Origin: a virus | Direction: 5' to 3' (one strand) | DNA: 64,000 bases | Virus record (IMG/VR): IMGVR_UViG_3300036770_003984 | Span: 62,001 to 126,000 of that record | Shown here: positions 5,652-19,626 of the stretch, in pieces | Position numbering within the stretch: position 1 is the stretch's first letter | How the letters are laid out: each line of letters starts with the position of its first letter | Notes under the pieces: model-generated | What the model was told of the DNA's origin: nothing | Seen by the model: only the letters and a program-made list of their open reading frames with translations | Database searches by the model: none | Program-made: the position numbers and the translations under genes

Positions 5652-5659
5652 AAATATTG

Positions 5660-5806
5660 TAGTCCTAATAGGATTTGAACCTATACGTAGATTTTGTATG
5701 TGCTTTTATCTTTGAAATCATCTACTAATTCCCGTTAATAGCGTTACACGAACCTAACAGAGCCATACACATACTCTCACAGCGTCTTCCATTCCGCCAC
5801 AGGACT
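5660..5806 (-). ncRNA. Leu-type tRNA-like element 1, expanded centre (147 nt)
   Basis: Acceptor AGTCCTG pairs with TAGGACT (A73), the D region reads TGGCGGAATGGAAGACGC as in tRNA-Leu, and the T arm is ATAGG-TTCAAAT-CCTAT. Between D and T arms lie about 97 nt instead of about 31, closed in part by GTATGTG/CACATAC, plus GTAGAT/ATCTAC. No ordinary 5-bp, 7-nt anticodon arm is evident. First of nine such elements. Confidence 0.6.
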
Positions 5807-5817
5807 TTGTTAAGTCA

Positions 5818-6105
5818 TTACCAACTATTCACAAATCGAATTTTATGTACTCCATCAGGTATTTCAGAAACAATAATCTCAAAACCTTCTACTTCATCTC
5901 CAAAATATTCGTGTTTTGGTATATTAATCTCCAATTTTTCTTCTAATAGATACCTTCCTGGATATCTACTACCAAAATATTCTGCAGTTTCTTTTGGAAG
6001 CTCTTGTATTTCCGCTTCAATACAAGCAATTACAACTTTAGCGTGTTTCTTATAATTTTCATTTTCAGGTGAAACAAAACCTATAATATGTGTTGACATT
6101 CCCAT
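5818..6105 (-). CDS. conserved phage-type hypothetical protein, 95 aa
   Basis: Reads MGMSTHIIGFVSPENENYKK, then HAKVVIACIEAEIQELPKET and EYFGSRYPGRYL. The pattern MSTHxxGF...ACxxAxxxxPxExxxYF is one I associate with small proteins of unknown function in diverse phages. The likely start is the third residue (MSTH). It is squeezed between two Leu-type tRNA-like elements. Confidence 0.6.
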   Translation of the reverse strand: MGMSTHIIGFVSPENENYKKHAKVVIACIEAEIQELPKETAEYFGSRYPGRYLLEEKLEINIPKHEYFGDEVEGFEIIVSEIPDGVHKIRFVNSW

Positions 6106-6129
6106 TTTATTATATTTTTTAATTTTTAG

Positions 6130-6275
6130 TAGTCCTGACAGGAATCGAACCTGTATTTACAACAACACCAATCTGACACATCCGTACCAGTAGAGGAATC
6201 GAACCTCAATATATTGTAACCCCCTTTGGGCTAATGGGATTTGCACCCAAACGTCTTCCATTCCGCCACAGGACT
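6130..6275 (-). ncRNA. Leu-type tRNA-like element 2 with extra T-arm hairpins (146 nt)
   Basis: Outer arms are Leu-like: AGTCCTG/CAGGACT acceptor with A73, GGCGGAATGGAAGACG D region, T arm ACAGG-TTCGATT-CCTGT. The interior holds TGGG-TGCAAAT-CCCA (CAA in the anticodon position but G instead of U33), a second T-arm-like GAGG-TTCGATT-CCTC, and a closing stem TTACAA/TTGTAA. It looks like a tRNA-Leu with a large inserted variable domain. Confidence 0.6.
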
Positions 6276-6280
6276 AAATT

Positions 6281-6553
6281 TTAATTTAAACTATCTAATT
6301 CCATACAATATCTTATGAATCTTTGTTCACCATCTTCAGTCTTATATTTGTATTCACCTTCATAAGGTGTATAATAACCTCTGTCATCAAATGGTTCAAA
6401 ACCTATATACTCAACACTTTCATCAAATATAGGACCTTCAACACCCATATATTGATTCAAAAGTAATTCAGCTTTTTCAATAGTACTTGCAGTTAGAATA
6501 GGAAGTCTATCGTTGCTATCTAAGATTATATAAATAAGTGCCATAATATTCAA
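6281..6553 (-). CDS. hypothetical protein, about 87-90 aa
   Basis: Translation starts MNIMALIYIILDSNDRLPIL or, equally well, at the second Met (MALIYI, base 6544). It is an acidic, aromatic-rich protein (FEPFDDRGYYTPYEGEYKYK). No family recognised; no membrane segment. Confidence 0.55.
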   Translation of the reverse strand: MNIMALIYIILDSNDRLPILTASTIEKAELLLNQYMGVEGPIFDESVEYIGFEPFDDRGYYTPYEGEYKYKTEDGEQRFIRYCMELDSLN

Positions 6554-6709
6554 AGTTTTAAAAGTTTTAAAAGTTTTCGGTTTTTCTATTCCAAACCTTA
6601 AAGTCAGGTAACATTCTAAGTGTCAACCACTACTTGTGAATTATTAGGTGTCACAACCAATTTATTAACAATTAAAAAGAAGATAAAGTTCAAAATAAGA
6701 CCTTCATTT

Positions 6710-6928
6710 TTAGAAATATTTTCTTGACGCGTCTTCAATTGTTCCATATTCACCCCCAACACCATTTATAAATTTAAATCCTTTATAAACATTTGACTTA
6801 AGAAGAATATGTTCTAACATACCACACATAACATACTTTTCAGCTGCATTGTGATAATCTGAAGCCAACATTTCATTTACATAAGTTTTATATTCTTCAA
6901 TATTAAATGTTTTTTTCTCTTTAGCCAT
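6710..6928 (-). CDS. hypothetical protein, 72 aa
   Basis: Begins MAKEKKTFNIEEYKTYVNEM and is helical in its first two thirds, ending GGEYGTIEDASRKYF. No motif recognised. Its upstream side opens onto a 330-base non-coding region that holds a candidate structured RNA. Confidence 0.55.
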   Translation of the reverse strand: MAKEKKTFNIEEYKTYVNEMLASDYHNAAEKYVMCGMLEHILLKSNVYKGFKFINGVGGEYGTIEDASRKYF

Positions 6929-7103
6929 TGTGATTATGTGTTTCAGTGATTAATAAGACAAAGATAGTTGTTCTTCCTGAATTATTCACTTTTTCCTATG
7001 TTTTTTTTTTAAAATTTTGGGGTATCTTCCAAGTTAGCTACACTTTTTCAACACCCCCTCATCCTGTAGAAATGGACTAGTGTTTTTTGCCTTTTGTAGA
7101 AAA

Positions 7104-7258
7104 TGCGAGTGACTATCTCGTGTAAACTGCCAACGTCTGGTCTTGGCAACCCTGGTTATAGTGACATATTAACCATAATACGTGGTTGTGTTAACATATT
7201 AACCAAATACGGCAGTTGAGGGCTAGCTGACCACCCAATCTATCTACATCAATTGGGA
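7104..7258. ncRNA. candidate multi-branched structured RNA
   Basis: The 6929-7265 gap has no gene but several hairpins: CGAG-tgactat-CTCG near 7106, GCCAA/TTGGC at about 7128-7147, GGTTA/TAACC at 7154-7174, GGTT/AACC at 7183-7204, and CCCAAT/ATTGGG at 7233-7257. ACTGCC near 7125 can also pair with GGCAGT near 7212, which would close a junction over the two GGTT hairpins. Neighbouring tRNAs are leftward, so the minus strand is the likelier transcript. Confidence 0.35.
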
Positions 7259-7265
7259 TTTTTGG

Positions 7266-7337
7266 AGCTGGTATGAGGAATCGAACCCCATTATCTTGAT
7301 TACAAGTCAAGTGCATCACCACTTATGCTTTACCAGC
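7266..7337 (-). tRNA. tRNA-Thr(UGU)
   Basis: 72 nt. Acceptor GCTGGTA/TACCAGC; anticodon arm CTTGA-CTTGTAA-TCAAG gives UGU; T loop TTCGATT. Follows the structured non-coding region in + coordinates, and is therefore transcribed before it. Confidence 0.9.
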
Positions 7338-7344
7338 CAATGTA

Positions 7345-7596
7345 TTATCTTCTTTTATAAACGTAGGTTATTGTATCCCCTATTTTATATACATCACTTC
7401 TTCTTGTCATTATCAATTCATCACAATCGGTTTTATAATTATATCTCTTACCAAATTCAATTGTGGATGGAGATTCTGTTATATACATCGTATCAATCAC
7501 ACACTTCTTAACAATATCACCAGGTTCTATTGTGGGGTGTTTGTTACAGGATACAAAGATAGTGATTAAAGTTGAAAACCAAAATATTTTTTTCAT
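7345..7596 (-). CDS. small putative lipoprotein, 83 aa
   Basis: Translation from ATG 7596 (MKKIFWFSTLITIFVSCNKH) gives a short hydrophobic signal and a lipobox-like IFVSC, so lipidation at Cys is likely. The mature part is beta-rich and ends YKIGDTITYVYKRR. The start overlaps the stop of the upstream SGNH hydrolase gene (AATGA), implying coupled expression of two exported proteins. An eight-residue upstream extension is possible but would bury the signal. Function unknown. Confidence 0.65.
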   Translation of the reverse strand: MKKIFWFSTLITIFVSCNKHPTIEPGDIVKKCVIDTMYITESPSTIEFGKRYNYKTDCDELIMTRRSDVYKIGDTITYVYKRR

Positions 7597-8198
7597 TTTT
7601 CCATATGTTTTATAACCCAATTAGCAAATTTTCTATGACCACTCGCAGCAAAATGAATTCCATCACCAGTATCACTATAAAACATTGTAGTGTCCATTGG
7701 AATTATCTTACAATTTTTTAAACCAGTTTTCTCGTGAACCATCAACTTTTGAAACTCAATGTATCTTCCAACACATCTCTTGGTTGTTTCCGCGTCATAG
7801 ACAGTCTTTGTTGTTACTTGAGCTGGATTAAAACCAACAATTACAATTGGTTCAATTCCTCTTCTATTACAACTATCAACCATCATTTGAATGTTATTAA
7901 CAGCACCTTGGAGATTTACATAAGAGAAAGCATCATTACATCCACCATAGATAAAAACACTTGAAAAAGCTGAATCGTTTTTAAAACAAGCGTTTAGGGT
8001 TGTCCTCATATAATCCGTTCTAACACCACCTTTTGATAGATTCACCCTTTGATATCCAAAATGTTTTGAAACTTGATCCTGCCATCCACCAGTCGCACAG
8101 GTTAAACTATCACCGATAAATAATACCCTACGTGGGGGTGTATATGACCAAGATGTCAATAATACAAATAATACTAAAAATACTAAAAATTTTTTCAT
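7593..8198 (-). CDS. secreted SGNH-family hydrolase
   Basis: 201 residues with an N-terminal signal peptide (MKKFLVFLVLFVLLTSWSY). SGNH blocks are visible: block I VLFIGDSLT (Ser nucleophile), block II KGGVRT (Gly), block III YGGCND (Asn), block V GDGIHF (Asp-x-x-His). Such enzymes hydrolyse ester bonds in acyl or acetyl groups of polysaccharides or lipids. The fold and motif spacing closely match the N-terminal domain of the tagged 550-residue lysin at 29122, indicating two paralogues, one exported and one probably virion-borne. Likely coupled to the lipoprotein gene that follows. Confidence 0.8.
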   Translation of the reverse strand: MKKFLVFLVLFVLLTSWSYTPPRRVLFIGDSLTCATGGWQDQVSKHFGYQRVNLSKGGVRTDYMRTTLNACFKNDSAFSSVFIYGGCNDAFSYVNLQGAVNNIQMMVDSCNRRGIEPIVIVGFNPAQVTTKTVYDAETTKRCVGRYIEFQKLMVHEKTGLKNCKIIPMDTTMFYSDTGDGIHFAASGHRKFANWVIKHMEK

Positions 8199-8229
8199 AA
8201 ATTAAATTTAAAAAATGTTTATTGTTTAG

Positions 8230-8303
8230 TGGAGGATGTCGGCTTTGCTCCGACCACCTCTTGTGTGCAAAACAAGTGCTCTTGCTGAATGAGCTAATCC
8301 CCC
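8230..8303 (-). tRNA. tRNA-Ala(UGC)
   Basis: 74 nt. Acceptor GGGGGAT/ATCCTCC with A73, D arm TTAGCTCATTCAGCAAGAGC, anticodon arm CTTGT-TTTGCAC-ACAAG giving UGC. The T loop is AGCAAAG instead of the TTCGAAN consensus, which is unusual and may affect tRNA folding or modification. Confidence 0.8.
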
Positions 8304-8376
8304 TTTTTGTATTATGTAATCGTGCTTAAATTTTAGACGTAAGGAAGCTATACACCAACCGACTTACTTTCTCCTA

Positions 8377-8589
8377 TTACATAATTTTTCTCCATAAACC
8401 ACCAGCCAAACATTTGAAATCATCAAAACTTGTTACTCTGATTGGATTTTCTTCATATTGCCATATTTTGCAGGTTATATGAATTTCACCACTTCTAAAG
8501 TCTTTTTTTAAGAAGGTATATAAACCATCACGAGACTTAATATGGATTTTATCCCCAGTTCTAAGATTTCTAAATTCAGACTGATTCAT
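8377..8589 (-). CDS. hypothetical SH3-like protein, 70 aa
   Basis: Reads MNQSEFRNLRTGDKIHIKSR followed by DGLYTFLKKDFRSGEIHITC, a strand pattern of a small barrel. No catalytic motif. Lies between tRNA-Ala and tRNA-Gly. Family unknown. Confidence 0.55.
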   Translation of the reverse strand: MNQSEFRNLRTGDKIHIKSRDGLYTFLKKDFRSGEIHITCKIWQYEENPIRVTSFDDFKCLAGGLWRKIM

Positions 8590-8608
8590 AATGAATTTTT
8601 AAATTTGG

Positions 8609-8680
8609 AGCAGTAAGCGAGACTCGAACTCGCAACATCTTGTTTGGAAGACAAGAACTCTACCATTGAGCTATTACTGC
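8609..8680 (-). tRNA. tRNA-Gly(UCC)
   Basis: 72 nt. Acceptor GCAGTAA/TTACTGC with T73, anticodon arm CTTGT-CTTCCAA-ACAAG giving UCC, T loop TTCGAGT. Confidence 0.9.
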
Positions 8681-8685
8681 AAATT

Positions 8686-8888
8686 AGAAATGAAAGTCCT
8701 TCCATAAGTATTATATGGGCAAGAGTTTTACGATGGTTTGTTCCCCATAGCCTGATACCGTGCACAGTAGAGCAGGGTCTCCTACATAACAACTTGGGTC
8801 ATTATTACTCTCGATTTAGGTTGCGATCCTCTGAGAGCCAAGTTCTCTTTCAATGGTGCTAATCCATCCTATGTAAGGTTTCATTTCT
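8686..8888 (-). ncRNA. candidate 200-nt structured RNA with paired ends
   Basis: No credible gene between tRNA-Gly and tRNA-Tyr. The ends are complementary: AAATGAAA near 8688 with TTTCATTT near 8879, continuing with CCTT/AAGG, which would close almost the whole region. On the minus strand hairpins such as GAGA-acttggc-TCTC and ATGGG...CCCAT are visible. I do not match it to tmRNA, RNase P or 6S RNA by signature. Strand is inferred from the neighbouring tRNAs. Confidence 0.4.
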
Positions 8889-8892
8889 TTTG

Positions 8893-8978
8893 TGGGTGCC
8901 GAGGGATTCGAACCCCCAAGTTTAGCATGTAGCAACTGATTTACAGTCAGCATCCTTCACCAATTTGGATAGACACCC
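8893..8978 (-). tRNA. tRNA-Tyr(GUA)
   Basis: 86 nt class II tRNA. Acceptor GGGTGTC/GGCACCC with A73, anticodon arm GCTGA-CTGTAAA-TCAGT giving GUA, long variable arm, T loop TTCGAAT. Confidence 0.9.
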
Positions 8979-8992
8979 TTTTTAATAATTTG

Positions 8993-9078
8993 ACGCAAGG
9001 TCCAGATTCGAACTGGAGTTCCACTTTCGCAGAAGAGGCTTATGAGACCCCTGACATTGACCACTCGTCCACCTTGCG
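8993..9078 (-). tRNA. class II tRNA with CAU anticodon
   Basis: 86 nt. Acceptor CGCAAGG/CCTTGCG with T73, D stem GAC/GTC, anticodon stem GGGGT/GCCTC with loop CTCATAA (CAU), a 6-bp variable arm TTCTGC-GAAA-GTGGAA, T loop TTCGAAT. Met and Ile(CAU) tRNAs normally have short variable regions, so the class II body, typical of Ser/Leu/Tyr, is odd. Whether it is charged with Met, Ile, Ser or Leu cannot be told from sequence. Confidence 0.7.
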
Positions 9079-9087
9079 TGATGTTTG

Positions 9088-9220
9088 TTGATTAAAAAGG
9101 ATTCGAACCTTAATCCACAGTCCCTTGCTTCTATCGTTGCCAGCTATTGTCTCCTATTAGGGATATCGTTGCCAGCTATTGTCGACATGGAGTACCGAGT
9201 GCTACCATACACCATAATCA
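9088..9220 (-). ncRNA. expanded tRNA-like element, 133 nt
   Basis: Acceptor TGATTAT pairs with TTAATCA (one mismatch), D arm GTGT/GCAC and a T arm with loop TTCGAAT are recognisable. The centre is expanded and contains a 20-base sequence (plus strand 9132-9151) repeated exactly at 9164-9183. No normal anticodon arm is evident. Probably related in kind to the Leu-type expanded elements, but with different arms. Confidence 0.45.
9132..9183. repeat. two exact 20-bp direct repeats, 32 bp apart
   Basis: The unit TATCGTTGCCAGCTATTGTC occurs at 9132-9151 and 9164-9183 inside an expanded tRNA-like element. This local duplication suggests how the central regions of these elements grow. Confidence 0.8.
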
Positions 9221-9272
9221 TTTCCGAGAGTTTCGAACCTCTCAGCCCCAGATTAATTACTTCTGAGATTTG
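9221..9272 (-). pseudogene. tRNA 3' fragment
   Basis: The minus strand shows a T arm GAGAG...CTCTC with a TTCGAA loop but no matching acceptor, D or anticodon arm before the 3' end of tRNA-Glu. Interpreted as a tRNA remnant between two longer elements. Confidence 0.4.
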
Positions 9273-9345
9273 TACACCATACGGGATTCGAACCCGTGAC
9301 TCCTCCGTGAAAGGGAGGTGACTTATACCCCTTGTCGAATGGTGC
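9273..9345 (-). tRNA. tRNA-Glu(UUC)
   Basis: 73 nt. Acceptor GCACCAT with ATGGTGT (terminal G-U), anticodon arm CCTCC-CTTTCAC-GGAGG giving UUC, T arm ACGGG-TTCGAAT-CCCGT. Confidence 0.9.
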
Positions 9346-9359
9346 GTTTTTAAAAATTT

Positions 9360-9463
9360 GAGGATGAGAAATCCTCTGTGTTGTAGTGTACGATTATGTT
9401 ACTATTCCATAATTCAAGTAATGTCACTCATCTTTATATTTCCTTTCTCAAGGGAACAACACA
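9360..9463 (-). ncRNA. candidate long-stem RNA in duplicated unit, copy A
   Basis: TGTGTTGT (9377-9384) pairs with ACAACACA (9456-9463). Further left GAGGAT-gagaa-ATCCTC forms a hairpin that, read on the minus strand, is followed by AAATTTTT and could terminate transcription. In minus order this gives tRNA-like element, long-stem domain, terminator, so the three may be one RNA of about 220 nt. Confidence 0.4.
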
Positions 9464-9467
9464 TTTG

Positions 9468-9574
9468 TAGTCCTGACAGGAGTCGAACCTGTATGATGAG
9501 TAGTAATGTTATTTAAGTGACAAGGTACTTACTCATCTATTCACTTCTAGCGTCTTCCATTCCGCCACAAGACT
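9468..9574 (-). ncRNA. Leu-type tRNA-like element 3 (107 nt)
   Basis: Acceptor AGTCTTG/CAGGACT with A73, GGCGGAATGGAAGACGC D region, T loop TTCGACT. In the centre AAGTGA and GATGAGTA are followed in the same order by their complements TCACTT and TACTCATC, an arrangement that forms either a pseudoknot or two alternative folds. No anticodon arm is evident. Confidence 0.6.
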
Positions 9575-9637
9575 ATTGTCTCACAAAATTACGATTTGAT
9601 TTTCTTAATTCCAAATCTTTTTTAAACTTTTTTTTTG

Positions 9638-9730
9638 TAGTCAGGATAGGATTCGAACCTATAACAGATTTGGTACTAATTTAATAGTTTGTAAAACCTC
9701 CCCCGTTTTCACCAGTTAAACTACCTAACT
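9638..9730 (-). ncRNA. tRNA-like element with unresolved anticodon (93 nt)
   Basis: Acceptor AGTTAGG/CCTGACT with A73, D stem GTTT/AAAC and T arm ATAGG-TTCGAAT-CCTAT are good. About 42 nt lie between D and T arms, and I find no convincing 5-bp, 7-nt anticodon arm (a GTTT-TACA-AAC hairpin is the best). Either a degenerate tRNA or another expanded element. Confidence 0.5.
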
Positions 9731-9785
9731 ATAATTTAAACCTTTTTACCTTTCATTTAGTTCCAAGAACTAAAACTTTTTTTTA

Positions 9786-9836
9786 ATAATCGGGCTACCC
9801 TCCTTTCGTCACAATCGCCCGACCATTGTGATTTCA
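9786..9836. ncRNA. candidate H-type pseudoknot
   Basis: CGGGC, then TCACAAT, then GCCCG, then ATTGTGA occur in that order, so stem 1 (CGGGC/GCCCG) and stem 2 (TCACAAT/ATTGTGA) interlock as a classical H-type pseudoknot. The stretch is non-coding, lies between two tRNA-like elements, and pairs equally on either strand. Confidence 0.4.
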
Positions 9837-9841
9837 GATTG

Positions 9842-9918
9842 TAGTCCTGACAGGATTCGAACCTGTAAACTTCCCCTTCACTTAAGGAGGGGTCACGTGT
9901 GCCTTCCGCCACAAGACT
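9842..9918 (-). ncRNA. Leu-type tRNA-like element 4, short form (77 nt)
   Basis: Acceptor AGTCTTG/CAGGACT with A73 and T arm ACAGG-TTCGAAT-CCTGT as in the other copies. The D region is altered (GGCGGAAGGCACACG). A CCCTC-CTTAAGT-GAAGG arm could present UAA with one mismatch, but no variable arm remains. A contracted or decaying member of the family. Confidence 0.55.
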
Positions 9919-9930
9919 ATTTAAAAATTT

Positions 9931-10034
9931 GAGGATGAGAAATCCTCTGTGTTGTAGTGTACGATTATGTTACTATTCCATAATTCAAGTAATGTCACTC
10001 ATCTTTATATTTCCTTTCTCAAGGGAACAACACA
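9931..10034 (-). ncRNA. candidate long-stem RNA in duplicated unit, copy B
   Basis: Exact counterpart of the copy A element: TGTGTTGT/ACAACACA stem with a GAGGAT/ATCCTC hairpin on its outer side. Being duplicated, it offers no independent evolutionary support for the structure. Confidence 0.35.
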
Positions 10035-10038
10035 TTTG

Positions 10039-10145
10039 TAGTCCTGACAGGAGTCGAACCTGTATGATGAGTAGTAATGTTATTTAAGTGACAAGGTACT
10101 TACTCATCTATTCACTTCTAGCGTCTTCCATTCCGCCACAAGACT
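10039..10145 (-). ncRNA. Leu-type tRNA-like element 5 (107 nt)
   Basis: Sequence-identical, as far as I can read, to element 3, carried in the second copy of the 294-bp repeat. Same AAGTGA/TCACTT and GATGAGTA/TACTCATC interlocking pairs. Confidence 0.6.
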
Positions 10146-10224
10146 ATTGTCTCACAAAATTACGATTTGTTTTTCTTAATTCCAAATCTTTTTTAAACTT
10201 TTTTTTTGTAGTCCCAACAAGATT

Positions 10225-10413
10225 CTAATGTAGAATCCATACAGAAGTTAATACACCTGCAATAACCATAACTAATGTTGCTATCCAACAAGTGTTTGAA
10301 ATCTTGTACCATAAATCACTTCTTTTAGTATCGCTATTCATAAGCGACCCAGTAACTCCAGCAACTATGATTGTGATAAGAAGTAGTGTAAAGTAAATTT
10401 TAAAATATATCAT
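10225..10413 (-). CDS. small membrane protein, 62 aa
   Basis: MIYFKIYFTLLLITIIVAGV followed by a polar loop and a second hydrophobic segment (CWIATLVMVIAGVLTSVWIL) predicts a two-helix hairpin protein. The gene ends against the broken tRNA-like sequence at 10208-10225. No family recognised. Confidence 0.6.
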   Translation of the reverse strand: MIYFKIYFTLLLITIIVAGVTGSLMNSDTKRSDLWYKISNTCWIATLVMVIAGVLTSVWILH

Positions 10414-10429
10414 GTTTTTTATTTTTTTG

Positions 10430-10513
10430 TACCCAGGGCGGGACTCGAACCCGCACGACCTTACTGGTCACAAGATTTTAAGTCTTGCGTGGCTACCATT
10501 ACACCACCTAGGT
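10430..10513 (-). tRNA. tRNA-Leu(UAA)
   Basis: 84 nt class II. Acceptor ACCTAGG/CCTGGGT with A73, anticodon arm CAAGA-CTTAAAA-TCTTG giving UAA, variable arm, T arm GCGGG-TTCGAGT-CCCGC. A regular tRNA-Leu. Confidence 0.9.
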
Positions 10514-10529
10514 AAATTTAAATACTTTT

Positions 10530-10664
10530 TTAATGTGGGGGAGTTGTATCCGTTAAATCATCCCATATTCTACCTAACCAAGAGTTTGGATATTTCTTAA
10601 CTACCCAATTACCAAAAAGTGTTAGAAGAATAAATAAAACTATAAACACAATCCAATTAATCAT
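10530..10664 (-). CDS. small membrane protein, 44 aa
   Basis: ATG at 10664 gives MINWIVFIVLFILLTLFGNW, one N-terminal membrane helix, then a polar tail with WLGRIWDDLTDTTPPH. Located between tRNA-Leu(UAA) and tRNA-Asp on the same strand. No family recognised. Confidence 0.5.
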   Translation of the reverse strand: MINWIVFIVLFILLTLFGNWVVKKYPNSWLGRIWDDLTDTTPPH

Positions 10665-10743
10665 AATCTTTTTTAATTTAAGTTACATTATTATAAACCA
10701 ACCTTCATCTCATTTAGTTCCAACTTTTAAAACTTTTTTTTGG

Positions 10744-10815
10744 CGGTACCAAGGGGAATCGAACCCCTACCATAAGAGTGACAACCTTATATTCTTGCCG
10801 TTAAACTATGGTACC
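10744..10815 (-). tRNA. tRNA-Asp(GUC)
   Basis: 72 nt. Acceptor GGTACCA/TGGTACC with G73, anticodon stem TAAGG/TCTTA with loop TTGTCAC giving GUC, T arm AGGGG-TTCGATT-CCCCT. Confidence 0.9.
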
Positions 10816-10862
10816 AAATATTTTTCCCTCAATTTCAATGAACATCACAAAAGTAGGTAATC

Positions 10863-11342: not shown

Positions 11343-11392
11343 ACCACAAAGTTACAAAACCATTTCTAATTCCCAAACTCTGTGACAAAAAA

Positions 11393-11423
11393 AAATCCAT
11401 CTTTTTTTTAGGAAGATGGATTT
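11393..11423 (-). terminator. intrinsic terminator
   Basis: AAATCCATCTT and AAGATGGATTT form an 11-bp hairpin; on the minus strand it runs into a T tract. It would end the leftward operon of the genes at 11584-14986, leaving the peptidase gene separate. The 11424-11583 stretch shows no gene. Confidence 0.75.
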
Positions 11424-11583
11424 GATTTTATTAACAATTAAAACCTTATATCATACCATCTCCATCCGAGGATTTCTACCCTCAGCTCCAGTCGTTAAGT
11501 CCATATAGAGATTGTGTTTCATTTGTGAAGTTTTTACTATTTTTTTATTAAATATAACGATATAATACAAAAGGTCAAGTTAG

Positions 11584-11901: not shown

Positions 11902-11903
11902 AA

Positions 11904-12143: not shown

Positions 12144-12158
12144 ATTATTATCTTTTTT

Positions 12159-12674: not shown

Positions 12675-12683
12675 ATTTAAAAA

Positions 12684-14663: not shown

Positions 14664-14674
14664 AGTTTAAACGA

Positions 14675-14986
14675 TTATTCATTAATAGAGCTGTACTCTC
14701 TCAATAAATAGTCGGTAAAATCTTCCACACTTTCAACATTAACTTCAATTTCATCATACCAAATCTTTTTTTCAATATTTTCATACAACCACCAACCAAC
14801 TAAATCCTGTATCCATCCGTATTGTTCGTCTTTTTCTTTTCTGAGAATGGTCGGAATAGACTTCTCAAGCTGGGACGTGGTATTGTTAAAGTCAAGTAAA
14901 TCAACTCCCATATCATACAACTTGTGCACTTTTTCATCGTGTTCCTTGATTTTCTTTAATGTTTCGATTATGTAATCCCTTACCAT
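14675..14986 (-). CDS. hypothetical protein, 103 aa
   Basis: MVRDYIIETLKKIKEHDEKV, helical and acidic, with GWIQDLVGWWLYENIEKKIW in the middle and an acidic tail. No motif recognised. First gene of the leftward string that runs to 11584. Confidence 0.6.
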   Translation of the reverse strand: MVRDYIIETLKKIKEHDEKVHKLYDMGVDLLDFNNTTSQLEKSIPTILRKEKDEQYGWIQDLVGWWLYENIEKKIWYDEIEVNVESVEDFTDYLLREYSSINE

Positions 14987-15022
14987 AATAAATATTATTT
15001 AATTGTTAAATTTTTAAATTTG

Positions 15023-15097
15023 CGAGAACGATAGGACTTGAACCTATAACCTGTGGGTCTGGAATCCACTGCTCTAATCCAATTGAGCTACATTCCC
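15023..15097 (-). tRNA. tRNA-Trp(CCA)
   Basis: 75 nt. Acceptor GGGAATG/CGTTCTC with G73, anticodon arm GTGGA-TTCCAGA-CCCAC giving CCA (one A-C mismatch at the loop end), T arm ATAGG-TTCAAGT-CCTAT. Confidence 0.85.
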
Positions 15098-15125
15098 ATA
15101 TGTTTTGTAAAGATAATAATAACTT

Positions 15126-15875
15126 TTAAATATTTCCGTATTTCTTATTCCAAATTTCAATATTTTCAAGTAGTTCGGATAATGTTAAAGACGATTTACC
15201 ATTTTTAGACGAATTATCCGAAAATAAAAGTAATTCACAATTTGCTGGATGAGATAAAATATTAGGGTCTATTTTATTTCTATAACCTTCCATCACTGAA
15301 TATTTATGGTCTTTTGTGACACCAACCAAATTATTTTTTTTATTTGTTGGGGAATACCATCCATATTGTTCAATTAAAATTAAATCAAATTCTTGTGGAT
15401 AATCCTTTACATTAAATTGAAAAGTACAAGAAGGTCTATAATATTGATAATACTCTAACCTACAATTAGTACAAACAATTTTGTACTTTTCAATAACTTT
15501 ATTATTACAAATCCTACAAGTTTTTATTTTTCCAACTTTAGGTTTAGTAGGGTTTGTCGGTTTAGTTGGTTTACTTTTTAATGTTTTTGAGATTTTATTT
15601 TTAGTTTCTTCACTATGTTTACGTTTTTTATTATTAAACGTTGTTGAACAAGATGAATTACAAAATAATTTGTTTTTACTTAAATAAGACTCAAATGTAT
15701 TTCCACAATTTTTACAAGTTTTATTTGTTGTATAAACTACTTGTAAACCTAATCTAAACATTTTGTTAGTTATCGTTTTATACGTAACTCCAAAAATTTC
15801 AGCAATCCTATTTGGTTTTAAACCTTGATTAACCAAATCAATTAATTTTTCAATATCGTTATCATTCCATTTCAT
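15126..15875 (-). CDS. homing-endonuclease-like protein (HTH, NUMOD3 and HNH-like)
   Basis: Start chosen at ATG 15875 (MKWNDNDIEKLIDLVNQGL). An N-terminal helix-turn-helix-like stretch (NRIAEIFGVTYKTITNKMFR) is followed by CKNCGNTF...FCNSSC, then KHSEETKNKISKTLK, the NUMOD3 DNA-binding motif, then CRICNN...CTNC. The C-terminal part (VTKDHKYSVMEGYRNKIDP and HPANCELL) carries the His and Asn spacing of a degenerate HNH nuclease. It lies between tRNA-Trp and a class II GCA tRNA, a usual kind of location for homing genes. 250 residues. Confidence 0.75.
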   Translation of the reverse strand: MKWNDNDIEKLIDLVNQGLKPNRIAEIFGVTYKTITNKMFRLGLQVVYTTNKTCKNCGNTFESYLSKNKLFCNSSCSTTFNNKKRKHSEETKNKISKTLKSKPTKPTNPTKPKVGKIKTCRICNNKVIEKYKIVCTNCRLEYYQYYRPSCTFQFNVKDYPQEFDLILIEQYGWYSPTNKKNNLVGVTKDHKYSVMEGYRNKIDPNILSHPANCELLLFSDNSSKNGKSSLTLSELLENIEIWNKKYGNI

Positions 15876-15927
15876 AAATATAAATATCAACAAAATGAGT
15901 AAAAATAACTAACTGAACTATTTTTTG

Positions 15928-16013
15928 AGGTCGGGGAGGGATTTGAACCCACGATGAATTTTTCATTCGATAGTTTTGCAGACTAGTGCCTTAACCAACT
16001 CGGCCACCCGACC
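15928..16013 (-). tRNA. class II tRNA with GCA (Cys) anticodon
   Basis: 86 nt. Acceptor GGTCGGG/CCCGACC with T73, Ser/Leu-like D arm GTGGCCGAGTTGGTTAAGGC, anticodon arm with loop CTGCAAA giving GCA, and a long variable arm (GAATGAAAAATTC hairpin). tRNA-Cys usually has a short variable region, so this could be an unusual tRNA-Cys or a Ser-type body with a Cys anticodon. Confidence 0.75.
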
Positions 16014-16028
16014 CTATTGTTTCTTTTT

Positions 16029-16240
16029 TAATCCCCCAACTTCACCCCACTCGTCAGTGGGGGATTGGTTGAGTTAAGCTTCCTAACTTATACCTTGGGC
16101 TATTCGTTTACAAGCAACAAGACCACAGCAGTGAGCAGTTCTTATGGGATGCCTCGTGGTACTATTATAACATAAAGAACAATTACCTACTAGCACCTCA
16201 CACCGAAATTGTAGGCAGGCTCGGTCCCTTAATTGTTCAA
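16029..16240 (-). ncRNA. candidate structured RNA, about 210 nt
   Basis: Non-coding between a GCA tRNA and a lipoprotein gene. A 9-bp stem GAACAATTA (16177-16185)/TAATTGTTC (16230-16238) closes one domain containing CCGA/TCGG. On the other side AATCCCCC/GGGGGATT encloses CCCCAC-tcgtca-GTGGGG, and ACCAC/GTGGT and TTATG/CATAA can pair between. Not a match to RNA classes I know by signature. Strand assumed from neighbours. Confidence 0.4.
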
Positions 16241-16244
16241 ATCT

Positions 16245-16493
16245 TTATTTCACGATTGTTTGTATTTCAAAATTTTTGGAGTTTTTATCATTACTCTTGT
16301 GAGTCACAGAACCATTACAAGTTGTAAAATACTTGTACCCATTATCCCAAAATCGATATACTTTACACCCATCGACCTCAAATAGAAGTTCAACTCTATA
16401 ATTCACATTATCTGTTTTTAGTTCTTCTAAACCTTCTCTTTGACAACTAAGGAATAATACAGATACCAAACCAAGAAATAATATTTTTTTCAT
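16245..16493 (-). CDS. small lipoprotein, 82 aa
   Basis: MKKILFLGLVSVLFLSCQRE has a clear signal and lipobox (LFLSC, Cys17). The mature domain is about 65 residues and beta-rich (YRVELLFEVDGCKVYRFWDN, then GYKYFTTCNGSVTH) with two Cys that could form a disulfide. Probably anchored in the host cell envelope, where it might act in superinfection exclusion, which is speculation. Confidence 0.7.
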   Translation of the reverse strand: MKKILFLGLVSVLFLSCQREGLEELKTDNVNYRVELLFEVDGCKVYRFWDNGYKYFTTCNGSVTHKSNDKNSKNFEIQTIVK

Positions 16494-16522
16494 TTTTTTT
16501 ATATTTTAAAAATCATTTAATG

Positions 16523-16607
16523 TGTCCTTACCTAGATTCGAACTAGGATTATACTTCTCGTCTCCACTTTGTAAGAGTGGGATGTTTAACCATTACACCA
16601 TAAGGAC
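16523..16607 (-). tRNA. tRNA-Val(UAC) with enlarged variable region
   Basis: 85 nt. Acceptor GTCCTTA/TAAGGAC with A73, anticodon arm CCACT-CTTACAA-AGTGG giving UAC, T arm CCTAG-TTCGAAT-CTAGG. About 16 nt lie between anticodon and T stems where Val tRNAs normally have five, one of several enlarged variable regions in this array. Confidence 0.8.
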
Positions 16608-16629
16608 TATTTATAAAAGAATGATTGGG

Positions 16630-16746
16630 CTATACTGATAATTGTACTCCAATAGAACCGAGACCGCGTATCTTAGTTACCTTTCCTAGTTTACAGTCAA
16701 AGTCCTGAACTTTCGTTCCATTCTTAATTTTTATTTTCAGACCCAT
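16630..16746 (-). CDS. hypothetical protein, 38 aa
   Basis: ATG at 16746 gives MGLKIKIKNGTKVQDFDCKL, a short beta-rich SH3-like peptide ending GSIGVQLSV. The frame stays open further upstream, but that would run through tRNA-Lys, so the internal start is preferred. Function unknown. Confidence 0.45.
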   Translation of the reverse strand: MGLKIKIKNGTKVQDFDCKLGKVTKIRGLGSIGVQLSV

Positions 16747-16809
16747 AATGTCAAAAAATATTTCTACTATTTTATAATAACACCTTTCGATAAGTGACTT
16801 ATTGTGTTG

Positions 16810-16884
16810 TGACCCTGGGGAGATTCGAACTCCCGCTCCCAATATTAAAAGTATTGTGCTTTAAACCAGCTAAGCTACAGGGTC
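16810..16884 (-). tRNA. tRNA-Lys(UUU)
   Basis: 75 nt. Acceptor GACCCTG/CAGGGTC with A73, anticodon arm CAATA-CTTTTAA-TATTG giving UUU, T arm CGGGA-GTTCGAAT-CTCCC region canonical. Confidence 0.9.
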
Positions 16885-16974
16885 ATTTTCTTGTTTCTTA
16901 ATGTAGTTGTTGTACTTATTTCTAAGCATTTCATAAAACTTGGATGAACTTGGTTTTCTAATTGTCCGTTTCAT
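16870..16974 (-). CDS. possible 34-aa basic peptide
   Basis: ATG at 16974 gives MKRTIRKPSSSKFYEMLRNK, overlapping the end of the 75-residue gene by 17 bases and stopping inside the 5' part of tRNA-Lys. The overlap with a tRNA argues against it; the sensible composition argues for. Weak call. Confidence 0.25.
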   Translation of the reverse strand: MKRTIRKPSSSKFYEMLRNKYNNYIKKQENDPVA

Positions 16975-17185
16975 TTGTTATTTTTTTAAGTGAGTTACAT
17001 CTACATAACACATTGAAGTAATGAATTGGTTCCATATGGTAGTTATTTTTGTCATCCAAATAAATCACCACCTCCATATCCACAATTGCCCTAATTTCGA
17101 TGTGTTTATTGTTTGGATTATCTTCACTATAATCAATAAACAACTTATCACCAACCTTAAATTCACCAATTTTTACATTAACCAT
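16958..17185 (-). CDS. hypothetical SH3-like protein, 75 aa
   Basis: MVNVKIGEFKVGDKLFIDYS, then HIEIRAIVDMEVVIYLDDKN, consistent with a small beta barrel. Situated between tRNA-Asn and tRNA-Lys. No family recognised. Confidence 0.55.
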   Translation of the reverse strand: MVNVKIGEFKVGDKLFIDYSEDNPNNKHIEIRAIVDMEVVIYLDDKNNYHMEPIHYFNVLCRCNSLKKITNETDN

Positions 17186-17201
17186 AATTTATTAAAATTT
17201 G

Positions 17202-17274
17202 CGTCCCAGGTAGGATTCGAACCTACGACAACTTGATTAACAGTCAAGGGCTACTACCACTGAGCTACTGAGAC
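17202..17274 (-). tRNA. tRNA-Asn(GUU)
   Basis: 73 nt. Acceptor GTCTCAG/CTGGGAC with G73, anticodon arm CTTGA-CTGTTAA-TCAAG giving GUU, T arm GTAGG-TTCGAAT-CCTAC. Confidence 0.9.
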
Positions 17275-17282
17275 ATTTGTTG

Positions 17283-17359
17283 TCGGCAAGATAGGAATCG
17301 AACCTATATGTAACCAATTAACCTTTCTACCGTGTATCAGACGGAGGGTATACTTGCCG
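17283..17359 (-). ncRNA. tRNA-like element without canonical D arm (Ile-like GAU)
   Basis: 77 nt. Acceptor CGGCAAG/CTTGCCG with A73 and T arm ATAGG-TTCGATT-CCTAT are perfect. Only nine nt separate the acceptor from a CCGT-CTGATAC-ACGG arm that shows GAU in the anticodon position. A D-loop-like GGTTAATTGGTTA follows instead of preceding that arm. Paralogous to the next element. Confidence 0.5.
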
Positions 17360-17372
17360 TATTATAATTCTG

Positions 17373-17449
17373 TAGGAAAGATGGGGTTCGAACCCATATG
17401 TTACCAGTTACCCTTTCTACGGCGTATAAGGCTGAGGGGATACTTTCCT
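17373..17449 (-). ncRNA. tRNA-like element without canonical D arm (UAU-like)
   Basis: 77 nt, aligned base for base with the element at 17283: acceptor AGGAAAG/CTTTCCT with A73, T arm ATGGG-TTCGAAC-CCCAT, and a CAGC-CTTATAC-GCCG arm that would show UAU, with a mismatch. GGTAACTGGTAAC follows. Acceptor and T stems differ from the sister by compensating changes, which supports that they are functional. Confidence 0.5.
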
Positions 17450-17457
17450 AAATGTTG

Positions 17458-17542
17458 TAGAGTAGACAGGACTTGAACCTGCAGCGTCACTATGACCCTT
17501 GTTCCCAAAACAAGACGGCTTCCATTTACCGGGTACTACTCT
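17458..17542 (-). tRNA. tRNA-Pro(UGG) with enlarged variable region
   Basis: 85 nt. Acceptor AGAGTAG/CTACTCT with A73, anticodon arm CTTGT-TTTGGGA-ACAAG giving UGG, T loop TTCAAGT. A GTCA-tag-TGAC hairpin forms an extra arm in the variable region, not usual for tRNA-Pro. Confidence 0.8.
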
Positions 17543-17690
17543 ATATTATTAAACCATATATAAATCCAAACAAAAGAACAATTAGAAATATAATTCCAAC
17601 TATAAACAAGTCTGAGTTCTTTGTTTTGTAAGACAAAATTAAGAATAAGATTCCAATAATCAAAAATAAAAGACCAATAATTACTAACAT
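17541..17690 (-). CDS. small membrane protein, 49 aa
   Basis: ATG at 17690 gives MLVIIGLLFLIIGILFLILS, a short polar loop (YKTKNSD) and a second helix. A two-helix hairpin filling the whole protein. It stops two bases into tRNA-Pro. No family recognised. Confidence 0.5.
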   Translation of the reverse strand: MLVIIGLLFLIIGILFLILSYKTKNSDLFIVGIIFLIVLLFGFIYGLII

Positions 17691-17693
17691 TTT

Positions 17694-17870
17694 TTAATTA
17701 TTTTTATCATATAAAATCCAAAAACGTAAACTAACCATAAACCAAATTTGAGAACCTAATAGCCAAAACCAAGTCATTAAATCTCGGTCATATTCTATTT
17801 CGTAGACAAATAGACAAAAATATCCTATACCTATTAAAAGCGAAAAAAGTGCAGAAATTTTATTTTTCAT
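17694..17870 (-). CDS. small membrane protein, 58 aa
   Basis: ATG at 17870 gives MKNKISALFSLLIGIGYFCL, a loop with EIEYDRD, then a Trp-rich second helix (TWFWLLGSQIWFMVSL). Three bases separate it from the next small membrane gene, so the pair is probably co-translated. Unknown function. Confidence 0.5.
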   Translation of the reverse strand: MKNKISALFSLLIGIGYFCLFVYEIEYDRDLMTWFWLLGSQIWFMVSLRFWILYDKNN

Positions 17871-17881
17871 ATTAGTTTGTT

Positions 17882-18094
17882 TTAATTTTCATCTTTAATT
17901 AAATCTAATACCCATTGTAAGAGTAATATTTTTTCTTTAAAAGAATGTTCAAAATCTTGACACATTACAAAAGATGGGTCACCCTCTTTTATAGTTTCTT
18001 CTGTCCATTTAAAATTTATTTGTCTATCTTTCCAATACTTCACACGTTTTTCAAACTCTTCTATTTTTTCAAGTATTTTTTTTCTTGCGTTCAT
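17882..18094 (-). CDS. hypothetical coiled-coil protein, 70 aa
   Basis: MNARKKILEKIEEFEKRVKY, then WKDRQINFKWTEETIKEGDP, helical throughout and amphipathic. First of three short genes running into tRNA-Pro. Similar small helical proteins are frequent in phages but I cannot name the family. Confidence 0.6.
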   Translation of the reverse strand: MNARKKILEKIEEFEKRVKYWKDRQINFKWTEETIKEGDPSFVMCQDFEHSFKEKILLLQWVLDLIKDEN

Positions 18095-18121
18095 TATATT
18101 TTAATTTTATAGTTTAAAAAA

Positions 18122-18248
18122 TAGTCCTGACAGGATTCGAACCTGTATTATGTGTGGACTCGAACCACTTTGAAAGGTGTTTCCTTTCCTGTAAACCCAG
18201 TACAGCTCCCAATATCTGAGAGGCGTCTACCAATTCCGCCACAGGACT
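18122..18248 (-). ncRNA. Leu-type tRNA-like element 6 (127 nt)
   Basis: Acceptor AGTCCTG/CAGGACT, D region GGCGGAATTGGTAGACGC, T arm ACAGG-TTCGAAT-CCTGT. A proper 5-bp, 7-nt arm exists (CTCTC-AGATATT-GGGAG) but lacks U33. It is followed by three hairpins in place of a variable arm: CTGTA/TACAG, GAAAGG/CCTTTC and a second T-arm-like GTGG-TTCGAGT-CCAC. Confidence 0.6.
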
Positions 18249-18254
18249 AAAATT

Positions 18255-18401
18255 CTACCATCTTACATATACACTAAAAAATAATAGTGCAATTGTGAAC
18301 ACTCGTTTTGTCCGACTGTGTGGGGTTCGTTGATATGACAATCCCAAATCGAACCACCATTCTTTATTGTCTAGTGTATTTAATGTGATTTCAACTTTCA
18401 T
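18255..18401 (-). CDS. hypothetical protein with C-terminal hydrophobic segment, 48 aa
   Basis: ATG at 18401 gives MKVEITLNTLDNKEWWFDLG, then a basic stretch and a hydrophobic end (FTIALLFFSVYVRW). Lies between two Leu-type tRNA-like elements on the same strand. No family recognised; short length lowers confidence. Confidence 0.45.
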   Translation of the reverse strand: MKVEITLNTLDNKEWWFDLGLSYQRTPHSRTKRVFTIALLFFSVYVRW

Positions 18402-18416
18402 AACTTTTAATTTTTG

Positions 18417-18546
18417 TAGTCCTGACAGGATTCGAACCCGTATTAAGCTACATATTGTTTATGTTAGACCTTTCGCTCCAATCCTAGTATTAAGGAGTGT
18501 CTGAACATTCAATCTTCACTCTACCCTTAGCTTTCGCCACAGGACT
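18417..18546 (-). ncRNA. Leu-type tRNA-like element 7 (130 nt)
   Basis: Acceptor AGTCCTG/CAGGACT with A73; T arm ACGGG-TTCGAAT-CCTGT. The D region is altered to GGCGAAAGCTAAGGG. The centre forms a long stem TAAGG-gta-GAGTG paired with CACTC-CTTA. No ordinary anticodon arm. Confidence 0.55.
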
Positions 18547-18554
18547 AAATTTAT

Positions 18555-18689
18555 TTAAAGTACACCAATTGCTTTTAATACAAATGGCGTTATTGCACAA
18601 GTAAGAACCAATAAATAAAACCACATTGGCATTACTCCGCTAATTTCGTTTCCTACTTTTCTATTTAAAAACTCTTTAAGCTCTTTCAT
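18555..18689 (-). CDS. small membrane protein, 44 aa
   Basis: ATG at 18689 gives MKELKEFLNRKVGNEISGVM and a single membrane helix (MWFYLLVLTCAITPFVL). Lies between tRNA-like elements 7 and 8. No family recognised. Confidence 0.5.
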   Translation of the reverse strand: MKELKEFLNRKVGNEISGVMPMWFYLLVLTCAITPFVLKAIGVL

Positions 18690-18712
18690 AACTTTTATTT
18701 TTTAATTTTTTG

Positions 18713-18860
18713 TAGTCCTGACAGGATTCGAACCTGTAAAAATTAAGCATGTACTCGTCACTCGGATAATCTGTACAACACTATGACTTTGCATATTTAC
18801 TCCGAGAAAATATACTGCCTTAGTTATCTTAATAGCGTCTACCAATTCCGCCATAGGACT
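18713..18860 (-). ncRNA. Leu-type tRNA-like element 8 with potential kissing loops (148 nt)
   Basis: Acceptor AGTCCTA/CAGGACT, D region GGCGGAATTGGTAGACGC, T arm ACAGG-TTCGAAT-CCTGT. ATTAAG/CTTAAT closes a central domain. Within it hairpin ATATTT/AAATAT exposes CTCGG in its loop and hairpin TGTAC/GTACA exposes CCGAG in its loop, so the two loops can pair. Confidence 0.6.
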
Positions 18861-18932
18861 ATTGTATCACAAAATTACGATTTCATTTTCTAATTTCCAA
18901 ACACTTTGGAATATTTTTTTATTCATTTAAAA

Positions 18933-19000
18933 TGATTAGGTGGGTCGCTCATCTCCACTGTCTGCATTCCTTTGAGTTATGAACTCAACTGCTCTAATCT
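18933..19000 (-). ncRNA. Met-like tRNA remnant or minimal tRNA
   Basis: Contains TTAGAGCAG followed by a perfect anticodon arm TTGAG-TTCATAA-CTCAA (CAU), as in tRNA-Met. A short GATTAG/CTAATC stem closes the ends, but the 5' half of the D arm is missing and the T arm lacks the TTCGA loop. Probably a tRNA-Met in which both outer arms have been rebuilt or lost. Confidence 0.4.
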
Positions 19001-19016
19001 TATTAAGATTTTTCTG

Positions 19017-19103
19017 CGGAGGACAGAGGACACGAACCCCACACCATACTTGGTGCCACTCGCTTAGCAGGCGGTGGTAACGACCCTGATTACTTTATCC
19101 TCC
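19017..19103 (-). tRNA. tRNA-Ser(GCU)
   Basis: 87 nt class II. Acceptor GGAGGAT/GTCCTCC with G73, anticodon CGC-CTGCTAA-GCG giving GCU, variable arm CACCA-agta-TGGTG, T loop TTCGTGT. Confidence 0.85.
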
Positions 19104-19108
19104 AATTG

Positions 19109-19339
19109 TTAACGTATGTGAACTCTGTCGTGGTCAGTTCCAACTATAACTGATACCTCATTTATAGTGTCATAATCTCCACCATAATCAATATCAATGG
19201 TTACTTCATAGTCATTATAACCTTCATCAGCTAATTCTTGTAATTTATCAATTAACCATTTTACAGTCTTAACTTTAGGTTTCACTGGTGTTTTTTCGGG
19301 TACATACCACACCCCATTTATTTGAATCCTATTTTCCAT
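19109..19339 (-). CDS. hypothetical protein, 76 aa
   Basis: MENRIQINGVWYVPEKTPVK, then TVKWLIDKLQELADEGYNDY and EVTIDIDYGGDYDTINEVSV. The helix followed by acidic strands (LIDKLQELADEGYNDYEV) is a pattern often seen in small phage proteins of unknown role. Upstream of tRNA-Ser(GCU) on the same strand. Confidence 0.6.
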   Translation of the reverse strand: MENRIQINGVWYVPEKTPVKPKVKTVKWLIDKLQELADEGYNDYEVTIDIDYGGDYDTINEVSVIVGTDHDRVHIR

Positions 19340-19422
19340 ATTTTTAATTATTTTTGTTTAAGGTTATCATTTACATAAACCTATCCAATAATTATTTAGT
19401 TCCAAGATTTAAATTTTTTTTG

Positions 19423-19545
19423 TAGTCTTGATAGGATTTGAACCTATACGATAACTGAGAACTGATTTACCCTGCTAATAGTTTAAAGGAGATTCACCTT
19501 CCAGCTAAGTTATCACAGCTGCGTCTACCATTCCGCCACAAGACT
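19423..19545 (-). ncRNA. Leu-type tRNA-like element 9 (123 nt)
   Basis: Acceptor AGTCTTG/CAAGACT fully paired with A73, D region GGCGGAATGGTAGACGC, T arm ATAGG-TTCAAAT-CCTAT. Centre closed by GATAACT/AGTTATC and containing hairpins AGCT/AGCT and AAGG-tgaatct-CCTT. The acceptor covaries relative to the other copies (T-A changes on both sides), supporting selection on the structure. Confidence 0.6.
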
Positions 19546-19553
19546 GAGTTTTG

Positions 19554-19626
19554 TAGTCCCAGCCCGATTTGAACGGGCATCTTATCATCCGTAGTGATAG
19601 ATTCTAATCCATTGAACTATGGGACT
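19554..19626 (-). tRNA. tRNA-Arg(ACG)
   Basis: 73 nt. Acceptor AGTCCCA/TGGGACT with A73, anticodon arm TATCA-CTACGGA-TGATA giving ACG, T arm GCCCG-TTCAAAT-CGGGC. Confidence 0.9.

Follow-up and report, generated by a model that had tools for sequence, protein, structure and literature searches.

A tRNA-like shell with exchangeable structured cargos in phage tRNA arrays: a family of putative non-decoding RNAs

Nine tRNA-like elements with expanded middles lie within a tRNA array in a 64-kb stretch of viral DNA, here called the window (bases 62001-126000 of the 128.5-kb IMG/VR virus record IMGVR_UViG_3300036770_003984). Compensatory evolution of the shell helices and of several cargo families, modularity of the cargos, swaps at the same sites and the location in the array are all evident, where the shell is the conserved tRNA-like part and the cargo is the middle. 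The elements are probably non-decoding phage RNAs that are processed as tRNAs and whose interchangeable cargo acts on the host; we infer their transcription, processing and target. The first-pass annotation had proposed tRNA mimics whose middle does something else. This proposal fits the sequences, since the shell covaries, anticodon-like arms are not enriched and cargos are shared. The breadth of the family, the exchange of cargos and a parallel with the species 1 RNA of phage T4 go beyond that annotation. In what follows, G and L numbers label compared records, and C and K numbers label cargos. The elements and their array are as follows.

5660-5806, minus strand: element with cargo C2 (97 nt), acceptor AGTCCTG/TAGGACT and T stem ATAGG/CCTAT
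6130-6275, minus strand: element with cargo C4/K3 (96 nt); four hairpins, one of them inner and T-arm-like (GAGGTTCGATTCCTC)
9468-9574, minus strand: element with cargo C16/K1 (57 nt); 8-bp helix GAUGAGUA/UACUCAUC that ends 2 nt 5' of the T stem
9842-9918, minus strand: element with cargo C28 (29 nt), at 77 nt the shortest in the window; C28 is also found in L020 with an AGTCCTG acceptor
10039-10145, minus strand: element with cargo C16/K1, an identical second copy of the 9468 element from a local duplication
18122-18248, minus strand: element with cargo C7 (76 nt); four hairpins, z -2.43
18417-18546, minus strand: element with cargo C8/K5 and a divergent D region; T stem ACGGG/CCUGU, but ACAAG/CUUGU in L100/L101
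18713-18860, minus strand: element with cargo C3/K2 (97 nt); acceptor AGTCCTA/CAGGACT, 6/7 paired with one A-C mismatch
19423-19545, minus strand: element with cargo C10/K4 (73 nt), closing helix GAUAACU/AGUUAUC and acceptor AGTCTTG/CAAGACT
4331-20127, minus strand: tRNA array hosting the elements; 24 ARAGORN calls, every one on the minus strand, with small open reading frames (ORFs) in between

All nine elements were found exactly at the starts first assigned to them, on the minus strand and inside the array. The shell runs from AGTC(C/T)TG through TG and GCGGAAT(T)GG(T/A)AGACGC to the expanded middle, a 5-bp T stem with a canonical T loop, CAGGACT and a final A. Besides its D and T arms, each element has discriminator A; the acceptor is 7 bp long in all except the 6/7 case, whose relatives in G001 and G008 pair 7/7. 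The distance between the D and T arms measures 29-97 nt, and no middle holds an ordinary anticodon arm, as the annotation had claimed on both counts. The Leu-like D motif attributed to the whole set is exact in seven of the nine; the element at 18417 diverges (GGCGAAAGCTAAGGGTAGAGTG) and that at 9842 is shortened (GGCGGAAGGCACACGT). A single G-U pair occurs in the acceptors of 9468, 9842, 10039 and 5660, and the T stem varies within the window (ATAGG/CCTAT, ACAGG/CCTGT). Shell patterns allowing 2-3 mismatches match 24 of 25 records while reversed patterns match none, so the shell is not due to chance.

Standard tRNA tools recover the elements in part. ARAGORN misreads 6184-6274 as 'tRNA-Leu(caa)' by using the inner T arm and missing the true 3' end at 6130, and it calls the 9842 element Leu(taa). 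Against the Rfam tRNA model (RF00005, cut-off 29 bits, sensitive mode), the elements at 9842 (38.2), 9468 (31.8) and 10039 (31.8) pass and the other six score below; no other Rfam family reaches its gathering score on the elements. Regular tRNA-Leu genes had also been noted separately, and ARAGORN places both in the array, apart from the elements (tag at 4331, taa at 10429).

The acceptor, D and T helices of decoding tRNA (RF00005) are present in the elements and are maintained by compensatory change. The element collection comes mostly from a filter that required a 7/7 acceptor. An unbiased check was therefore provided by a free-pairs test, in which selection used acceptor pairs 1-4 together with the T arm and nothing else, and pairs 5-7 were then checked. 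All three pairs form in 175 of 181 elements, in five compensatory types (AGG/CCT 127, CTG/CAG 26, AAG/CTT 3, TTG/CAA 2, CTA/TAG 1). The claimed covariation of acceptors also holds within the window, where AGTCTTG/CAAGACT of 19423 is compensatory to AGTCCTG/CAGGACT. The T stem has changed on both sides (GCCCG/CGGGU and GUGGG/CCUAC vs ACAGG/CCUGU), as has the D stem (GCG/CGC vs GCA/UGC). Random mutation of the acceptor and T stems among relatives, which would indicate decaying pseudogenes, was looked for, and compensatory changes were found instead. Because the acceptor, D, T and cargo helices all change in this way, decaying pseudogenes are ruled out.

The cargos are separate structured modules common to different shells. 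Across 142 cargo families, folding is more stable than in dinucleotide shuffles (mean minimum free energy z -0.66, t = -7.3). Of the 29 pairs in alignment A2, which holds five elements with three acceptor variants, 10 are compensatory (shuffled mean 3.7, 0/500), as are 8 of 28 in alignment A1 (six elements; shuffled mean 2.0, 0/500); these counts take in shell helices, the cargo share being 7/10 in A2 and 3/8 in A1. Controls with slid partners gave 0-3 compensatory pairs. In alignment A3, a 6-bp stem reads GUUGAA/UUCAAC or GAGCAA/UUGCUC around an invariant 9-nt loop, and hairpin 1 of the 6130 cargo differs between phages (GUGG/CCAC vs UGGG/CCCA). Anticodon-arm-like hairpins (5 bp, 7-nt loop, U33) are not enriched in the 142 families (9 vs 12.9 in shuffles), whereas T-arm-like hairpins are (6 vs 0.8). 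The 18122 cargo has one of each: CUGUA CUGGGUU UACAG is anticodon-arm-like, and GUGGUUCGAGUCCAC forms an inner hairpin of the T-arm kind. An anticodon-arm-like hairpin is present in 20 of 218 shell-like sequences, and 16 of those 20 have other acceptors.

Tertiary contacts are possible in individual cargos. A pseudoknot AAGUGA x UCACUU may form in K1 of the 9468 element, and a loop pairing CUCGGA x UCCGAG in the 18713 cargo. Strong pseudoknot candidates exist in C12, C14 and C21, and marginal ones in C3 and C16. Two general rules did not hold up: H-type pseudoknots are overall not above shuffles, and a helix ending 0-4 nt 5' of the T stem is a weak tendency (Fisher p = 0.04).

Cargos are shared between shells. 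A cargo can remain 98% identical even where the acceptor differs, and C23 is identical at 42 of 43 nt between AGTCTTG (L039) and AGTCAGG (L227) elements. Clustering gave seven cargo families that span different shells, one of which, the C20 cluster, owes part of its linkage to a long merged record. A pattern built from the K1 cargo only matched nine contigs, and all nine matches start inside a tRNA shell (one contig stops before the 3' half); seven of the contigs were newly found, all with the AGTCAGG shell. The corresponding patterns for K2 and K3 led to no further shells, and their matches outside the clade were unrelated sequence, so that only K1 crossed lineages.

Cargos are also exchanged at fixed sites among close relatives of the window phage. 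The site flanked by 10146-10396 and 9218-9467 holds C16, C28 and C16 in the window phage (G000) but just one element, with C23, in G001 and G008, whose flanks are 98.0% and 98.8% identical; G011 has C14 beside a 99.3% identical downstream flank of the same site. Beside 17541-17703, three phages carry C22, C0 and C3 between flanks 98.8-99.6% identical, and the site below 18861-19110 holds either C3 or C8. Cargo C2 of the 5660 element is also found in G011 (L103) with flanks of 94-96% identity, and G001, G005, G008 and G027 have different elements there. The repeated shells would be the obvious place of recombination. Conservation of cargos within the clade was dropped as a sign of selection because these phages are 93-98% identical in the array anyway. 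A direct local duplication (9345-9640 / 9918-10210, by eye) has one K1 element per copy, with the 9842 element between them.

Well over 100 IMG/VR contigs carry the shell, of which AGTCCTG/CAGGACT and AGTCAGG/CCTGACT are the two main forms. The 5' shell AGTCYTGTGGCGGAAT was found in at least 41 IMG/VR stretches, most of which have a complete element with a different middle, and pattern scans for the AGTCAGG lineage found at least 120 stretches. G033, a member of this lineage with a 78% identical terminase, has seven 3' ends of this type, at least six of which belong to complete elements. Where a terminase was found, its identity in AGTCAGG contigs ranges from 79% down to 29%, including phages of 246-271 kb, and near-identical shells are thus common to deeply diverged phages. 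In total, IMG/VR yielded at least 207 distinct elements and at least 155 cargo families, of which 123 were seen once (Chao1 at least 533). Cargo length is about 20-180 nt across the family; in the shortest members (69-79 nt) the middle spans about 20-31 nt, generally without an anticodon arm. Discriminator A is present in 191 of 207 elements and CCA is encoded in 7 of 207. At loci with two or more elements, a single strand is used throughout (50/50).

The shell was also looked for outside IMG/VR. Across 84,980 prokaryote genomes, no match to the 5' shell plus D arm was found, and the 3' shell gave only four cyanobacterial matches, at least three of them ordinary tRNAs. Two whole elements used as queries found no isolate phage record with an element, and shell queries gave partial matches only, mostly to ordinary tRNA genes.

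Related shells may occur in and near the set described. One possible tenth member lies in the window:
9637-9730, minus strand: 94 nt in length, with acceptor AGTTAGG/CCTGACT; ARAGORN calls it tRNA-Val(tac), of which there is a better one at 16522
A further shell, AGTTAGG/CCTAACT with a G-rich expanded middle, is found at about L017:6440-6560 and L020:977-1095, directly downstream of AGTCCTG elements.

In this picture, the elements have a 7-bp acceptor, a D arm, a T arm and usually discriminator A, with cargo in place of the anticodon arm and variable region. They would be transcribed together with the array tRNAs, cut at the 5' end by host RNase P, and matured at the 3' end by RNase Z or trimming followed by CCA addition, which is suggested by how rarely CCA is encoded. 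The shell would supply defined ends and the tRNA elbow would lend stability, while homology between shells would permit cargo recombination among phages. The cargo may bind a host protein or RNA and help the phage to take over the host or counter its defences, whether as an inhibitor, as a decoy or in the manner of an antitoxin RNA. An arms race is suggested by the high turnover of cargos at fixed sites and by their occurrence in distant phages, for which reason a counter-defence or host-takeover role is preferred. More broadly, and tentatively, large phages may carry open-ended RNA effector cassettes in which a host-matured shell with a lineage-specific acceptor presents hundreds of cargos against the host or its defences, T4 species 1 RNA perhaps being the first one seen. 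In neither Rfam nor the open-access literature searched is there a class in which one constant tRNA-like shell is combined with over 150 exchangeable cargos unrelated to one another. Should the RNAs be made, their cargos would amount to a ready-made collection of evolved RNAs that fold autonomously and are used by phages in infected cells, and the elements would be a natural counterpart to the engineered tRNA scaffold.

Several observations weigh against this reading. The K1 pseudoknot stem is invariant, and the pseudoknot is therefore unsupported by covariation. The longest complementarity of window cargos to the rest of the 64-kb window is no better than in shuffles, which tells against an antisense action on the phage, and no motif common to the cargos was found that would name a target. 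Cargo turnover could come from recombination through the repeated shells, without an arms race; it is turnover and analogy that suggest a target and a counter-defence role.

The main rival takes the cargo as chiefly a spacer: leucyl-tRNA synthetase would charge the shell, and the RNA would act through its aminoacyl end or EF-Tu. Bacterial leucyl-tRNA synthetase is independent of the anticodon, and most elements have a Leu-type D arm and A73. A spacer, however, needs neither the better-than-shuffled folding nor the compensatory helices of the cargos, and the D regions of 18417 and several L212 elements are not Leu-like; we consider such Leu-accepting mimics unlikely. Slightly less credit is given to decoys that soak up anticodon nucleases or other tRNA-targeting effectors. 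The multi-copy, tRNA-like shells would suit this role, and one report describes phage tRNAs that counter tRNA-targeting defence, cleavage of tRNA-Tyr in the variable loop by Septu, and amplification of anti-defence loci by phage T6 (PMC13096335). The chance-or-lower frequency of anticodon-arm-like hairpins argues against bait for anticodon nucleases, and a common tRNA decoy would not need mutually unrelated cargos; a variant in which elbow- or acceptor-directed effectors are drawn off may be considered.

It is improbable that the elements are recombination-driven junk, in which tRNA-end repeats capture random middles that are tolerated since the ends are processed away. The shells recombine, the cargos turn over, 123 of 155 families are singletons and pseudoknot propensity is unremarkable, as such junk would have it; compensatory change nonetheless keeps the acceptor, D and T stems and the cargo-family helices, and cargos stay 98% identical across differing acceptors. 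Introns, with the middle spliced out to leave a decoding tRNA-Leu, are very improbable. Group I introns in tRNA-Leu(UAA) are a known bacterial case, but here the insert is not flanked by an anticodon arm and matches no Rfam intron family, the members of 69-79 nt generally have no arm to splice to, and ordinary Leu tRNAs are present in the array. Equally far-fetched is a Y-RNA-like partnership with an adjoining protein, considered as possibly Ro60-like:
20734-22194, minus strand: DUF2828/DUF7788 protein, adjoining the array; PHROG 850, 'RNA-binding protein'
Bacterial Y RNAs can mimic tRNA, and this gene adjoins the array not only in the window but also in several relatives. DUF2828, however, was detected in just 7 of 32 records in one search and 5 of 26 in another, and is missing from long element-bearing records such as G033 (149.7 kb) and G055 (159.9 kb). 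Pfam gave no TROVE match for the protein, and no relevant relative was found among solved structures. The pseudogene, intron, anticodon-decoy and Ro/Y-RNA readings are thus refuted or unsupported.

A cultivated phage offers a parallel to the putative non-decoding RNAs. The T4 tRNA cluster holds two stable RNAs of unknown function, one of which is described here:
NC_000866 70908-71046 (L195:1409-1547): T4 species 1 RNA (rnaC); relatives in L196-L211
Species 1 RNA is a late RNA, validated by Northern blot, with reported discrete stable accumulation and a function unknown as of 2022 (PMC9697503). Its relatives number 718 to 811 isolate records (Straboviridae and Marfavirus). Like the window elements, it lies in a T4-like tRNA cluster and has a T arm, an end helix and a replaced interior; a helix ends just before the T arm, and there is no decoding anticodon arm. 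At its 3' end, a canonical T arm precedes a strand complementary to the 5' end, and Marfavirus relatives encode CCA after the resulting end helix. The RNA is 138-141 nt long, and its ends are conserved while the interior changes between close relatives, as in the elements: the Moonvirus phages Moon and NM4.3 agree at 11/11 positions of the 5' end and 47/48 of the 3' part, and at only 45/77 of the interior. In 13 aligned members, 97% of cells are paired in the proposed structure and 15 pairs have changed on both sides (7.5 in shuffles, 0/500). A kissing loop joins two hairpins, TTGACG x CGTCAA, and covaries to TTGGCG x CGCCAA in Marfavirus.

The two differ in other respects. The conserved ends share no sequence homology: 17 aligned rnaC members start with CGATTCG or CGGTTCGAGG and end with CGTTYCG, as opposed to AGTCCTG/CAGGACT in the window shells. 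The kissing loop (UUGACG x CGUCAA) was not seen in the window elements on sequence inspection. There is one main rnaC copy with essentially two interior types, in contrast to up to nine element copies and 155+ cargo families. A D arm is not recognised and the acceptor-like end helix has a UU/UU mismatch, which also count against extending our reading to T4; because of them, the parallel is architectural and not proof of kinship. Species 1 RNA seems to share the architecture, as a single-copy RNA from a cultivated phage; membership in the family is not claimed. The comparison gives a testable view of this RNA in a workable laboratory phage: a shell resembling tRNA, an interior that can be replaced, and a kissing loop.

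Other known systems resemble the elements in part. Class II tRNA-Leu (RF00005) shares the D arm (GCGGAAUUGGUAGACGC), T arm, A73 and 7-bp acceptor, and several cargos have a variable-arm-like helix 2 nt before the T stem; the elements differ in having 20-180 nt in place of an anticodon arm. In transfer-messenger RNA (tmRNA), too, the ends resemble tRNA and enclose a large middle that does not, at times with possible pseudoknots, but it is Ala-type where the element shell is Leu-type, and ARAGORN found none in the window. YrlA, a bacterial Y RNA, is also a non-coding RNA with a tRNA-like module, in the opposite topology: its tRNA-like part is distal, whereas that of the elements is at the ends, and the elements have no consistent RNA-binding partner. 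Type III antitoxin RNAs and their phage mimics are small structured RNAs that could act as decoys. In contrast to them, the elements have a tRNA shell, no tandem cargo repeats and no toxin gene seen alongside.

By its sequence, the window phage is T4-like. The large terminase has a PF03237 match, and the closest isolates by this protein, among them Flavobacterium phage immuto and a Microcystis phage, are of the T4 type, with 27-29% identity. A single ORF with a Por_Secre_tail domain, together with these distant isolates only, suggests a Bacteroidota host.

The array contains further tRNA-like features, all on the minus strand. At 17283-17359 and 17373-17449 lies a pair with intact acceptors (CGGCAAG/CTTGCCG and AGGAAAG/CTTTCCT), a T arm and a long variable region, in which a D arm is not evident. 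Their anticodon-loop-like stretches are CTGATAC (GAT, Ile) and CTTATAC (TAT, Ile); since ARAGORN called no tRNA-Ile in the array, they may be D-armless Ile tRNAs. The sequence at 19632-19730 is tRNA-like with a different shell (ends GGAAAGT...GCTTTCC), an expanded middle and a T-arm-like hairpin with a non-consensus loop. Rfam freshwater-1 RNA (RF02979) matches 8726-8786 inside the array at 58.9 bits, under its gathering score of 72. Lone T-arm-like hairpins in the window at 3548-3564, 9090-9115, 9205-9235 and 20636-20652, where an acceptor partner is not obvious, are possibly broken or unusual tRNA-like elements. Elsewhere, the window encodes an HD-domain ORF (1366-1953, minus strand), a full-length Hsp70 ORF (34125-35984, minus strand) and a class II tRNA synthetase-like (D, K and N) ORF (36292-37125, plus strand).

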